33,081 bases of DNA, from contig DASVTZ010000206.1 of assembly GCA_036387335.1 (NCBI GenBank), positions 1 through 33,081 of the forward strand, written 5' to 3'. Position numbers and translations under genes: made by a program. The DNA is from Longimicrobium sp. GTDB taxonomy: Bacteria; Gemmatimonadota; Gemmatimonadetes; Longimicrobiales; Longimicrobiaceae. Each line of letters opens with the position of its first letter. Positions within the stretch are counted from its first letter, which is position 1. Positions 4,091 to 33,081 of the stretch are shown in pieces. Below the pieces are notes generated by a model, which was not told the DNA's origin, did not search any database, and was given only the letters and a program-made list of their open reading frames with translations.

Positions 4091-4181
4091 CCTCACACAG
4101 AGCCACAGAGGGGGGACGGCAAGAGGAACCGAAAGTAGTTCCTCCGCGGCTTGCGGTTTCTCTCTGTGACCTCTGTGTGAC
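4091..4181. repeat. Dispersed hairpin repeat, CACAGAG family, copy 1
   Basis: The left arm (CCTCACACAGAGCCACAGAG, from 4091) is answered by a right arm CTCTGTGACCTCTGTGTGA (about 4162-4180). It lies 7 bp beyond the original queD stop codon, so it could serve as a terminator for that transcript. Related copies occur near 11366, 30583 and 32932. Confidence 0.7.
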
Positions 4182-4187
4182 GCTTTT

Positions 4188-4544
4188 TCAATCGCCGCGG
4201 TACACGCACCCGGAGGTGCACGTCTCCCGCACCGCCACCTTGCTGAGGCCGGGCAGCGCGGGATGAAGGCGCGCCCAGATCTACCGCGCGAGGTTCTCGC
4301 TGGTGGGGTTCTCCAGCCCCTCGATGTCGTTGAGGTAATTGTGGTCCAGCACGTCGTACAGCGGGCGGAAGGCGCGCTTGAGCCCCGCGAAGTCCATCAC
4401 CCACCCCGCGTGCGGATCCACCGGGCCGCTCACGTACAGCTTCACGCGGAAGGAGTGGCCGTGCAGCCGCGCGCACTTGTGCCCCTCCGGAACGTTGGGT
4501 AGCCGGTGCGCCGCCTCGAAGGTGAACTCCTTGAAGATCTCCAT
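4188..4544 (-). pseudogene. queD: 6-carboxy-5,6,7,8-tetrahydropterin synthase interrupted by an in-frame amber codon
   Basis: QueD converts dihydroneopterin triphosphate to 6-carboxytetrahydropterin, an early step of preQ0 and queuosine synthesis. The open part (4544-4284, 87 residues) has the expected start FTFEAAHRL, the [11 protein letters not shown] segment with the family Cys and zinc His residues, the LDHNYLN motif, and ends [14 protein letters not shown] at 4283-4281 follows, exactly where the E. coli enzyme has Trp (AKWIW). In the same frame the sequence continues for 30 codons (IWARLHPAL ... RETCTSGCVYRGD) to a TGA at 4188-4190. The whole would be 118 residues, close to the E. coli length of about 121. 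The catalytic Glu in RETCTSGC lies after the stop, so a product ending at the amber should be inactive. One G-to-A change (TGG to TAG) explains it. Recent inactivation, suppression or a sequencing error are all possible. Confidence 0.85.
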
Positions 4545-4681
4545 GCCGCCTCGCGCTCCAATACGAAAAAGGGCCCACCACGACGATGGACCCCGGCCCG
4601 ATCCAGACCTTCGCCCGCGAATCTACACCGCGCCCCCGCCGCCCGTCCAGAGCGTCAGGAGCCTGCGGCCGCGGTCCCCGC

Positions 4682-5062
4682 CTAAGCGACGAGATGGTAC
4701 GCGAGCAATCCGCCGATCCCCAGCAGCACGGCTCCGGGCACGACGAAGATCCGCGCATCTTCGGGTGTGACCCTCGCCATGCTCCGCAATCCCGCCTGCG
4801 GATGGACGAACGCGACCACGCTCTTCGCCACCTGCGCCCACCCCAGCAAGGTGAGCACGGCGGGGATTCCCACCCAAACGTTGTGGAATCCCACGATCAA
4901 CGACCCGAACGACAGGCTCAAAAAGCCGTTCGCGAAGCTCCCCGCCGCGCCCTTTGCGCGTAGCCAAACGAAGAACTCCGCCCACGCGCGCGGCTGCACC
5001 ACGTGCGACAGCCCGATCACGATGCAGTTGATCGCCGCGACGTACTCGATTGCGCGTTCCAT
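4682..5062 (-). CDS. Small integral membrane protein of unknown function
   Basis: This 126-residue hydrophobic protein has about four predicted membrane segments (roughly residues 5-23, 41-60, 64-85 and 102-124) and a short charged loop around 90-100. I do not recognise the family; the size and topology recall DoxX-like small membrane proteins, but no signature is visible. The ATG at 5062 is chosen over an in-frame TTG at 5077 because GGAG lies 5 nt upstream of the ATG, and the TTG itself falls just ahead of that ribosome binding site. The gene ends 137 bp before the queD start, and the two may or may not share a transcript. A well-formed promoter with an embedded inverted repeat lies about 50 nt upstream, so regulation by a dimeric repressor is likely. 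Confidence 0.7.
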   Translation of the reverse strand: MERAIEYVAAINCIVIGLSHVVQPRAWAEFFVWLRAKGAAGSFANGFLSLSFGSLIVGFHNVWVGIPAVLTLLGWAQVAKSVVAFVHPQAGLRSMARVTPEDARIFVVPGAVLLGIGGLLAYHLVA

Positions 5063-5119
5063 GACTGCTCCATCCAAGACTGTGCGCTCGACGCAGTTCG
5101 CTAGTTTAGAAACATCGAC

Positions 5120-5148
5120 ACTATAATTTAGATCTATCTAAAAATCAA
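5120..5148 (-). promoter_or_regulatory. Promoter with perfect operator-like inverted repeat in its spacer
   Basis: On the minus strand, -35 TTGATT (5148-5143), a 17-bp spacer and -10 TATAGT (5125-5120) precede the small membrane protein gene by about 50 nt. The spacer is almost entirely filled by TTTAGATCTATCTAAA (5127-5142 on the plus strand), 7-bp arms around 2 bp. A further TTTAGA half-site lies at 5105-5110. A dimeric repressor bound there would block RNA polymerase. The cognate regulator is not in the window. Confidence 0.65.
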
Positions 5149-5187
5149 CTCCAGGAAGGAGCTACGGCCGAGCAGCACGTCGCGAGG

Positions 5188-5225
5188 AAGCCACAGAGAC
5201 ACTGAGGTTTCGTTCAGTGCCTCTA
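5188..5225. repeat. Degenerate copy of the CACAGAG repeat
   Basis: The stretch AAGCCACAGAGACACTGAGG, followed by TTCAGTGCCTCT, resembles a shortened copy of the dispersed hairpin repeat. It lies just downstream of the metallo-beta-lactamase-fold gene and contains a short CACTGA/TCAGTG stem. This may be a remnant acting as a transcript end. Confidence 0.35.
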
Positions 5226-5267
5226 TGCAGTCTATTCTCGATTGTTCGTCGCCCGGTCCACCCGCGC

Positions 5268-6239
5268 CTACGCTCCCGTGGTCACCTCCTCGTACGCCAC
5301 GCTGATCGGGTCGCGCGCGCCCGCCTGCCCAAACGGCCCCCACGCCTCGAAGCCGGGGAGCGCCGCGCGCATCGCCAGGATCTCCTCGCGCGAGCGCCCC
5401 GCCGCCACGTGCCGCTCCACGAACGCGAGCACCGCCTGCAGGTAGTCGCGGAACTGCAGCAGCTCGGCCCCGCTCCCGGTGACCGGCAGCCCTTCCTTGG
5501 CGTGGCCGAAGATGTAGATGGTGTCGCGCGCGTGCGAGTCCACAACCTCGCGCAGCAGCCGCGCCCAGTTGCGCATCGAGGCGCCGGCCGCGCGGTCCAC
5601 CACGGGGTGGCGCCGGTGGAAGCCGAGATCGCCCACGTGCACCACGTTCGCGCGCTCGAAGGTGATGACTGCGTCGCCGCTCGTGTGCCCGCGCCCGTAG
5701 TGCCGCGCCACGATGCGCTCGTCGCCGACCGCGGTGGACCACGTGTGCGAAAAGATGGTGTCCGGGTAAAGCGGCGGTGGAGGGGCCGGCTGGGCTGGCG
5801 GCTGCTGCGCGGGCTGCGCCTGCTGCGGCGGCTGCGGCGGCTGCGGCGGCTGCGGGGCGCGCCGCATATGCTGGTCCGCCATCCCGTGCGCCACCACCCG
5901 CCGCGCCACACCGCGAAACACACCGTTGCCGCCCGTGTGGTCCCCGTGGTGATGCGTGTTGATCAGCACGTCCACGCCCCGGTTGCGCGACCGCTCCTGC
6001 AGCCCCGCCAGCAGCGCCCGCGCCTCCGCCGGGAACTGCGTGTCCACCACCGCGACGCCGCGCGGGTTCACGAGCCACCCCACGGTCCCTCCGCGCATCG
6101 TAAACGTGCCGACGTTGCGCCGAATCGGCGTGAACACCGGCTGCTGCGCCGCCTGCGCCAGCAGGCGAAACGGGTGCCCAGCGAAGGCGCCGAGCGTGAC
6201 TGCGGAGGTGGCGAGGAAGTCGCGGCGGGTGAGAGACAT
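5268..6239 (-). CDS. Tat-exported metallo-beta-lactamase-fold hydrolase
   Basis: The 323-residue protein begins MSLTRRDFLATSAV, a twin-arginine signal (Arg5-Arg6), so it is probably exported folded to the periplasm. The start at 6239 follows AGGAG at good spacing; longer upstream readings run through the tRNA and are not real. The fold is marked by HHHGDH (96-101), the metal-ligand motif, followed by GHTSGD (His185), HVGDLGF (Asp204) and FGHAKEG (His246), the expected order of the other ligands. Two metal ions, probably zinc, are inferred. A proline/glutamine-rich insert (129-156), encoded by a 9-bp tandem repeat, interrupts the region between the first motif and His185. The substrate is unknown: members of this subgroup range from beta-lactamases to quinoprotein-relay-like and lactonase-like hydrolases, and nothing here decides between them. 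Confidence 0.85.
   Translation of the reverse strand: MSLTRRDFLATSAVTLGAFAGHPFRLLAQAAQQPVFTPIRRNVGTFTMRGGTVGWLVNPRGVAVVDTQFPAEARALLAGLQERSRNRGVDVLINTHHHGDHTGGNGVFRGVARRVVAHGMADQHMRRAPQPPQPPQPPQQAQPAQQPPAQPAPPPPLYPDTIFSHTWSTAVGDERIVARHYGRGHTSGDAVITFERANVVHVGDLGFHRRHPVVDRAAGASMRNWARLLREVVDSHARDTIYIFGHAKEGLPVTGSGAELLQFRDYLQAVLAFVERHVAAGRSREEILAMRAALPGFEAWGPFGQAGARDPISVAYEEVTTGA
5820..5858. repeat. 9-bp tandem repeat inside the hydrolase gene
   Basis: About four units of GGCTGCGGC (plus strand) encode Pro-Pro-Gln repeats in the proline-rich insert of the metallo-hydrolase. The unit is a multiple of three, so copy-number change would lengthen or shorten the linker without breaking the frame. Confidence 0.7.
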
Positions 6240-6354
6240 CGAGCGCTCCTGTGTTGGCTGGGGTTCGCGGGCGTGACTGTGCGCACCCGCACGCTGCGCG
6301 CCGCTTCGTCTAACAAGAATCAGTTCCGCATTCACGACCCCAGCCGCGTGCCAC

Positions 6355-6393
6355 AAAAAGCCCGCGGAGCGGCAAAGTGCCGTCCCGCGGGCT
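6355..6393 (-). terminator. Rho-independent terminator of tRNA-Ala
   Basis: On the minus strand a 9-bp stem (AGCCCGCGG / CCGCGGGCT, arms 6393-6385 and 6367-6359) is followed by TTTTT. It lies 13 nt past the tRNA 3' end, which makes it a textbook intrinsic terminator separating the tRNA from the metallo-hydrolase gene. Confidence 0.85.
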
Positions 6394-6405
6394 GTCCTGT
6401 GAAAA

Positions 6406-6478
6406 TGGAGCGTATCGGGATCGAACCGATGACCTCCGCATTGCAAATGCGGCGCTCTCCCATCTGAGCTAACGCCCC
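6406..6478 (-). tRNA. tRNA-Ala (anticodon TGC)
   Basis: The 73-nt minus-strand sequence folds into a full cloverleaf. The acceptor stem is GGGGCGT/ACGCTCC with one G-T wobble. The D-arm begins TAGCTCAGATGGGAGAGC, and the anticodon stem CCGCA/TGCGG encloses loop TTTGCAA, which reads TGC. The T-arm is ATCGG-TTCGATC-CCGAT, and the discriminator is A. The 3' CCA is not encoded. The gene has its own promoter and terminator. Confidence 0.97.
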
Positions 6479-6606: not shown

Positions 6607-7185
6607 ATGTGGAGCGAATGGGGCCGTACCACCCGGTTCCTCAACAGTACCCGCATCGCCTTCGCACGCGAGCAGGCACTCTGGCACAACCTGGAGCTCG
6701 CGGACCGGTCCACGGCGCGGATCCACACCGTCAGCGGTCCGGCGCGCTACCGCGTGTCGCTCGACGATCACATCCGTGCGCTGGGGGACGAGCGGCTGCT
6801 CCACGGTGCAATTCTGATCTACAGCTACACGCTCGCGGAAAGCCAGGCGGCGGATTATCTCGGGCTCAGCACCCGCGACCTCGGCGGAATCGAAGACTGG
6901 GCGCAGCGGCTCCTGCGCACGATCGGGCGGACGTGGGGCGACGTGCTGGACGGCAAAGCGGGGCTCGTGGAGGTCGCGGTGGTCCGCAACGCACTGGCGC
7001 ACGGCGTCCGGCGAATGGACCAGAGCGGGATCAACCGGATGGCGGCCGCGGGATCGACGTTCGGGTGGAGCGTGGGTGAGCCGGTGGATATCTCGTTCGA
7101 CCAGCTTCGGCTGTACCGCGACCGGCTCCGCAGCCTGCTACGCCTCGCATTCCCCACGCCTCCCCGGTCACGCCGCATCACGTGA
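6607..7185 (+). CDS. Hypothetical protein with HEPN-like RX4H motif
   Basis: A 192-residue, mostly helical, probably cytoplasmic protein. I do not recognise its family from the whole sequence. One segment stands out: VVRNALAHG (Arg127 to His132) within an amphipathic helical context, matching the RX4-6H motif of HEPN-domain ribonucleases and related helical-bundle proteins. Such motifs also occur in non-nuclease HEPN relatives, so activity is uncertain. It is not paired with an obvious nucleotidyltransferase antitoxin partner; the next gene in the same direction is an aconitase-family enzyme 102 bp on. A GGGGCAGG stretch 4 nt before the ATG could be the ribosome binding site. Its arginine-rich C-terminus could bind nucleic acid. 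Confidence 0.6.
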   Translation: MWSEWGRTTRFLNSTRIAFAREQALWHNLELADRSTARIHTVSGPARYRVSLDDHIRALGDERLLHGAILIYSYTLAESQAADYLGLSTRDLGGIEDWAQRLLRTIGRTWGDVLDGKAGLVEVAVVRNALAHGVRRMDQSGINRMAAAGSTFGWSVGEPVDISFDQLRLYRDRLRSLLRLAFPTPPRSRRIT

Positions 7186-32931: not shown

Positions 32932-33081
32932 TCTCACGCAGAGGCGCAGAGACGCAGGGAGAGAACAACGGAGAAAAAGCCTCACACAGAGGCCACAGAA
33001 GAAACAGAAAGCCACAGAGGAAACCTTTTCGGTTCTCTCTGTGGGTCTGTGTCTCTGTGTGAGCCATGCAGTTGCGGTTCT
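32932..33081. repeat. Dispersed hairpin repeat, CACAGAG family, copy 4 (cut by window end)
   Basis: It begins TCTCACGCAGAGGCGCAGAG 10 bp after the lipoprotein stop. It continues through CCTCACACAGAGGCCACAGA and the answering CTCTGTGGGTCTGTGTCTCT to the end of the window, ending GTTGCGGTTCT as copy 3 does in its middle. It has the same nested architecture as copy 3 and is incomplete. Confidence 0.7.

Follow-up and report, generated by a model that had tools for sequence, protein, structure and literature searches.

Promoter and palindrome of the 126-aa gene

The window, i.e. the whole 33,081-bp stretch of DNA analysed here, contains a conserved ORF for a 126-aa protein, predicted to be a four-helix membrane protein, on the minus strand (4682–5062). 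A ribosome-binding-like GGAG was read from the sequence 5 bp before its ATG (5068–5071, minus strand), and a promoter scan identified only one sigma-70-like promoter in the region 4600–5400 (9/12 matches, 0.1 expected). Its -35 element TTGATT (5143–5148) and -10 element TATAGT (5120–5125) are both on the minus strand, which reads TTGATT / TTTAGATAGATCTAAAT / TATAGT with a spacer of 17 bp. A terminator-like hairpin (5146–5164, minus strand; 0.7 expected by chance) is present directly upstream of this promoter.

As the original prediction described, 16 of the 17 spacer bases between TTGATT and TATAGT are occupied by a perfect palindrome, TTTAGAT-CT-ATCTAAA (box 1, 5127–5142), which comprises 7-bp arms and a 2-bp centre and contains the core TTAGA-N4-TCTAA. 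The second TTTAGA half-site that it placed downstream is also present (5105–5110 on the plus strand), with 16 bp separating it from the palindrome. This half-site belongs to a degenerate second box (box 2, 5105–5120; TGTCGATGTTTCTAAA on the minus strand, 3 mismatches of 14), which starts 22 bp from box 1 and overlaps the expected transcription start.

Perfect 7-bp inverted repeats are not enriched in the window as a whole, i.e. 52 were seen versus 44–77 in 20 shuffles. When the 205-bp intergenic stretch was shuffled, a 7-bp repeat appeared in 12.1, 6.3, and 1.8% of the shuffles at gaps of up to 10, up to 4, and exactly 2, respectively. A first shuffle test had given zero occurrences of the palindrome, a count that is circular because the pattern was picked after being seen. 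By these frequencies the palindrome by itself is only mildly unusual, and therefore the case for a functional site is carried by the fit to the spacer and by the cross-genome evidence presented below, with which we conclude that the palindrome is very probably a real operator.

The protein family and the inserted segment

The 126-aa protein matched no Pfam or NCBIfam model, which agrees with its original description as a small four-helix membrane protein lacking a known family. Homologues were detected in 4 of 61 relatives and in 28 of 246 genomes of the class, and 29 homologue loci, in records labelled Gemmatimonadota, Planctomycetota, Acidobacteria, Verrucomicrobia, and others, were found among 75 candidate contig stretches. 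In 31 sequences, the residues G17, S19, H20, W27, G53, H60, W63, T71, G74, K80, P88, and G110 are invariant; the family alignment (A3) omits L040, and a mixed alignment (A4) served for scanning only. The AlphaFold model of the protein consists of four long and two short helices (pLDDT 96.1); a Foldseek comparison of the model with the PDB gave nothing at E 0.001, and the best Z value in a VIA search was 5.1, among unrelated helical proteins. Some of the relatives (of 31 or 4) gave weak matches to the small four-helix membrane families DUF2065, DUF7470, DUF4345, DoxX_2, and MerC, but all of these were under the curated cut-offs or had weak E-values, and the window protein itself matches none of the five. 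Assignment to DoxX_2, DUF2065, or DUF4345 was rejected, as no match exceeded the curated Pfam cut-offs. No HTH repressor family was seen beside the homologues among the matches listed (25 of 115 families; 94 of 126 listed flanking ORFs scanned).

The sequence surrounding the locus is 88–92% identical to that of the syntenic genome G006, where a metallo-beta-lactamase (MBL)-fold gene abuts the upstream region of queD. Positions 4664–5267 of the window (604 bp), which include the promoter and the gene, correspond to 12 bp in G006 (L085); relative to that genome, the 126-aa gene and its promoter are an insertion of ~600 bp between the MBL-fold gene and queD. Two of the nine other genomes of the genus possess a homologue, both at different places. 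Because the distribution is patchy, we read this difference as an acquisition rather than a loss, with apparent horizontal transfer of both gene and promoter. Among 154 genomes of the order, none yielded a DNA match to the promoter region, and the other DNA matches of the inserted segment in these genomes are short and start at query base 198 at least, i.e. at or in the gene. A plasmid search gave no match, no convincing terminal repeats were found at the insertion ends, and a tRNA was the sole match in a search for structured RNAs.

Other features of this region also vary. The stretch from queD to tRNA-Ala and aconitase differs within the genus (window 4281–6478; L085; L086): it carries the MBL-fold and 126-aa genes in the window, the MBL-fold gene adjoining queD in G006, and a PtuA/PtuB pair (Septu defence type) in G005. 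The queD-like (PTPS) ORF of the window (4281–4544, minus strand) contains an in-frame stop at 87 aa, the G006 homologue being open to 140 aa; the shortened ORF may be a pseudogene or reflect an assembly error, and a paralogue (C147) is present in the same genome. A 192-aa ORF between tRNA-Ala and aconitase (6607–7185, plus strand) has no Pfam or PADLOC match. Words resembling CACAGAG(A/C)CACAGAG recur beside genes in the window (about 4093–4110, 5190–5225, and 32950–33067) and in L085 and L086, and were judged by eye to form an interspersed repeat family.

The upstream regions of homologues were compared using 59 loci with a family match (52 distinct proteins); after exclusion of five weak homologues (L033, L034, L058, L059, and L060), the set comprised the window and 46 further homologues. 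Conservation of the palindrome upstream of orthologues of the 126-residue protein, on which the original prediction was to stand or fall, fails in its strict form: a close copy precedes 0 of the 46 other homologues, of which L022 and L040 come nearest with 10 of 14 (p 0.13 and 0.03 in shuffles, respectively), and the remaining scores are 9 of 14 or lower. The apparent horizontal acquisition of gene and promoter lessens the weight of this comparison. The regulated-promoter reading as originally proposed is thus upheld in its operator-like palindrome embedded in the promoter and its second half-site, but not in the conservation of the palindrome. A looser core, TTAG-N6-CTAA, occurs before 2 of the 46 homologues (L022 and L040), within 40 bp of the start codon, and TTAG/CTAA at other gaps from 0 to 12 gave no match in the 47 upstream regions. 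At least two such occurrences in 46 upstream regions were obtained in 0.35% of 2000 shuffles, in a test made after L022 and L040 had been noticed. Palindromes of any kind numbered 14 in the 47 regions (window included) versus 6.5 in shuffles, and those of the homologues are mostly GC-rich and in close relatives; in a word test over the homologue upstream regions, TTAG ranked 7th of 256, with GC-rich words higher.

Related sites and candidate regulators

In the genome to which the window belongs (G000), no second TTTAGAT-N2-ATCTAAA was found at up to 2 mismatches. With 3 mismatches, 10 sites were found versus 6 for the reversed control, and TTTAG-N6-CTAAA with one mismatch gave 7 sites versus 18 in the control; the looser versions are no commoner than in the controls. 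The identification of a partner by a shared site within the genome was abandoned, no second site having been found. One clear DtxR-family gene, G000:C97 (228 aa, 68.5 bits), is present, and its product shares 54% identity across 136 residues with a regulator of another genome (G008) whose own promoter contains such a box. No box lies upstream of G000:C97 itself (best 6 of 14). The HTH_20 model gave 14 matches in the genome, 9 of them over the cut-off, and no similar palindrome was found upstream of the DtxR- and HTH_20-hit loci (16 of 17 read; best 9 of 14). No cognate ArsR (HTH_20) or PadR gene lies beside the window site, the neighbours of which are the MBL-fold gene and queD.

These data bear on the possibility that the operator is a stranded foreign element, which came with the gene, is read by no regulator in this cell, and leaves the promoter constitutively on. 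Such an origin would agree with the insertion-like segment, a site that is unique in the genome, and a promoter region with no DNA relative in the order, but a DtxR gene sharing 54% identity with one that bears the box is present in the genome, and we consider a stranded operator very unlikely.

Across 394 genomes of the class, sites with up to one mismatch numbered 15 in 13 genomes, the window genome included (14 in 12 others); since the reversed control gave 16 by a hand count of the listing, the number of sites is in itself uninformative. The position of the sites is more telling. Seven of the other loci are in locally GC-rich DNA (60% GC at least), and in six of these a regulator gene starts 9–38 bp downstream, a count that refers to the motif sites alone. 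Three of the six regulators are of the DtxR/IdeR type, namely Fe_dep_repress/Fe_dep_repr_C proteins in G004 and G008 and an Fe_dep_repr_C-FeoA protein in G133. Two are ArsR-type (HTH_20) regulators followed by AHSA1 genes (G135, TTTAGTTATATCTAAA, and G023, TTTAGCTCGATCTAAA), the HTH_20 match of the G135 regulator being below the Pfam cut-off (22.0 versus 27 bits), and one is a PadR gene (G104, TTTAGATATATCTAAC, two differences from box 1). For the seventh locus (G011), no family was identified on either flank. At G004, G008, G135, and G023, the site overlaps promoter-like hexamers (motif sites only, uncontrolled), those of the two ArsR-type loci being TTGACA-17-TAAAAT (11/12) and TTGCTT-17-TAAAAT (8/12). 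No regulator start was found near the sites in L116 and L119, and the low-GC sites L117, L118, L120, L126, and L127 are known as flanking DNA alone. The ArsR-type and AHSA1 gene pairs at L115 and L124, which come from two different families of the class, have a TTTAG-N6-CTAAA palindrome overlapping the promoter. The genome-wide search originally proposed for naming the regulator therefore gave no copy in the genome itself but near-identical sites in related genomes before DtxR, ArsR, and PadR genes; the original prediction had listed the ArsR and PadR classes among its candidates, but not DtxR, the best-supported one.

The G133 site is one base off box 1 and is followed, at the identical distance downstream, by a second TCTAAA. 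A composite two-box pattern, built after the G133 site had been seen and searched at up to 2 mismatches, matched 10 loci in the 394 genomes versus 2 for the reversed control. G000 and G133 alone have the exact 22-bp two-box arrangement. Among the eight other loci, four (G231, G153, G097, and G081) also possess the complete left arm TTTAG in box 2, which the pattern did not demand; as G097 and G081 are loci of one kind, these four amount to three independent cases. In G133, the double box heads a DtxR-FeoA gene followed by a 277-aa ORF, which we read as the GTPase part of FeoB, and an FeoB_C ORF. In G231, it heads an operon for a ZnuA-type binding protein, an ABC ATPase, and an ABC-3 permease, and in G153 it precedes a gene for a TonB receptor. 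The G081 copy is flanked by a Phenol_MetA_deg outer-membrane-type ORF on one side and, on the other, by a squalene-hopene cyclase gene (the cyclase assigned from sequence only), and a squalene-hopene cyclase gene also adjoins the G097 copy. No gene family was identified at the loci in G018, G013, and G011, and the G300 locus (46% GC) has no nearby start and looks like a chance match.

Against this background, it can be asked whether the window site is simply an AT-rich promoter that happens to contain a 7-bp inverted repeat. The shuffle frequencies (6.3% of intergenic shuffles at a gap of up to 4), the lack of enrichment in the window, the absence of conservation before homologues, and the uniqueness of the site in its genome would all be compatible with a chance repeat. 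The exact filling of the spacer, the second copy spaced by 22 bp, the difference of a single base from the G133 double site, and the location of six of the seven GC-rich one-mismatch copies at regulator promoters argue against it, and we regard chance as quite unlikely.

The class of the regulator is a more difficult matter. The operator could be read by an ArsR-type (HTH_20, AHSA1/SRPBCC-paired), PadR, or other winged-helix repressor that responds to a small molecule or stress instead of a metal. Near-identical cores before the ArsR-type genes (G135 and G023) and the PadR gene (G104), the overlap of site and promoter in both ArsR loci, and the 14 HTH_20 matches in the genome (9 over the cut-off) point in this direction. 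However, the exact two-box layout is found with the DtxR-FeoA/FeoB operon, and no second box at 22 bp is present in the G135, G023, and G104 loci; moreover, the upstream regions of the resident HTH_20-hit genes have no similar site among the loci read (best 9 of 14), and the G135 regulator is itself below the Pfam cut-off. We therefore view an ArsR- or PadR-type reader as the chief alternative, possible but rather doubtful.

A DtxR-type reader has in its favour the G133 double site at the head of a DtxR-FeoA/FeoB operon and the three DtxR-type proteins among the six regulators; against it stand the unique site in the genome, the resident DtxR promoter without a box, and the ArsR-type and PadR genes that carry the same core. 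On this evidence, we tentatively favour, at close to an even chance, a reading in which a winged-helix repressor, most likely one of the DtxR/IdeR/MntR metalloregulator type, binds an operator embedded in the promoter and switches the four-helix protein in response to metal. The occurrence of this class of box before metal regulators and uptake genes suggests that iron or manganese controls the production of the 126-aa protein. Within the cell, the DtxR protein G000:C97 would be the most plausible partner, and this assignment is the weakest link of the reading.

A proposed metal switch and its known counterparts

If the site is indeed read by a DtxR-type protein, a metal-loaded dimer would bind box 1 (TTAGA-N4-TCTAA) between the -35 and -10 elements, and the degenerate box 2, offset by 22 bp or roughly two turns of the helix and covering the expected transcription start, could take up a second dimer. 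The bound repressor would exclude RNA polymerase; when iron or manganese becomes scarce, it would leave the DNA, and the four-helix membrane protein, which probably serves metal homeostasis, would be made. The gene and operator would have arrived together as the ~600-bp insertion, with G000:C97 as the likeliest reader. By extension, the 126-aa protein may represent an undescribed, horizontally spread family for iron or manganese homeostasis, in which H20 and H60 are possible metal or haem ligands, and the ~600-bp segment a self-regulated unit whose tandem DtxR-type operator is read by a resident metalloregulator; we consider this extended proposal speculative and rather unlikely.

The operator is ordinary in kind, and its value would lie in the functional lead that it gives for a membrane-protein family of unknown function. 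The searchable literature contains hardly any descriptions of operators from Gemmatimonadota-like bacteria, and a search for the exact motif strings found none in searchable papers. Through the two-box motif, an uncharacterized, conserved family of membrane proteins gains a testable connection with iron or manganese, and the 22-bp double-box form provides a handle for finding metal regulons across the class.

Among known systems, the operators of actinobacterial IdeR/DtxR share with the window site the TTAG-N6-CTAA core, a matching geometry, and an overlap with the promoter. In PMC8464063, IdeR/DtxR sites are redefined as a 14-bp half-site, TTAGGNNNNCCTAA, and TCTAA is tolerated in place of CCTAA: the Saccharopolyspora (S. 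erythraea) IdeR bound a full site with T for C at the start of each CCTAA repeat without significant loss (about 70 nM). Window positions 5128–5141 (TTAGATAGATCTAA) agree with this half-site if T is allowed at the first C, a tolerance taken from the full site. However, the full 19-bp IdeR box, TTAGGTTAGSCTAACCTAA, which accommodates two dimers, is absent around 5127–5142, where the inner repeat TTAG-S-CTAA is missing; the window site also differs in that its first repeat position is A/T, its two boxes of 16 bp start 22 bp from each other, and its host is high-GC and Gemmatimonadota-like. The Treponema (T. denticola) TroR operator, as given in PMC2628430, has a different sequence. The putatively autoregulatory promoters of the ArsR (HTH_20)-AHSA1 loci (G135 and G023) and the PadR locus (G104) carry nearly the same palindrome but have the regulator gene directly downstream and no second box at 22 bp. 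In its layout, the window site recalls MntR, for which the preprint PMC11275975 describes paired sites over the mntS promoter in Escherichia coli and arrays at mneP in Bacillus subtilis. The MntR sites are 18 bp long and 1 bp apart, whereas the window boxes are 16 bp long and 6 bp apart; in both cases, several DtxR-family dimers bind, or in the window would bind, neighbouring boxes that overlap a promoter, and mntS, too, codes for a small protein.
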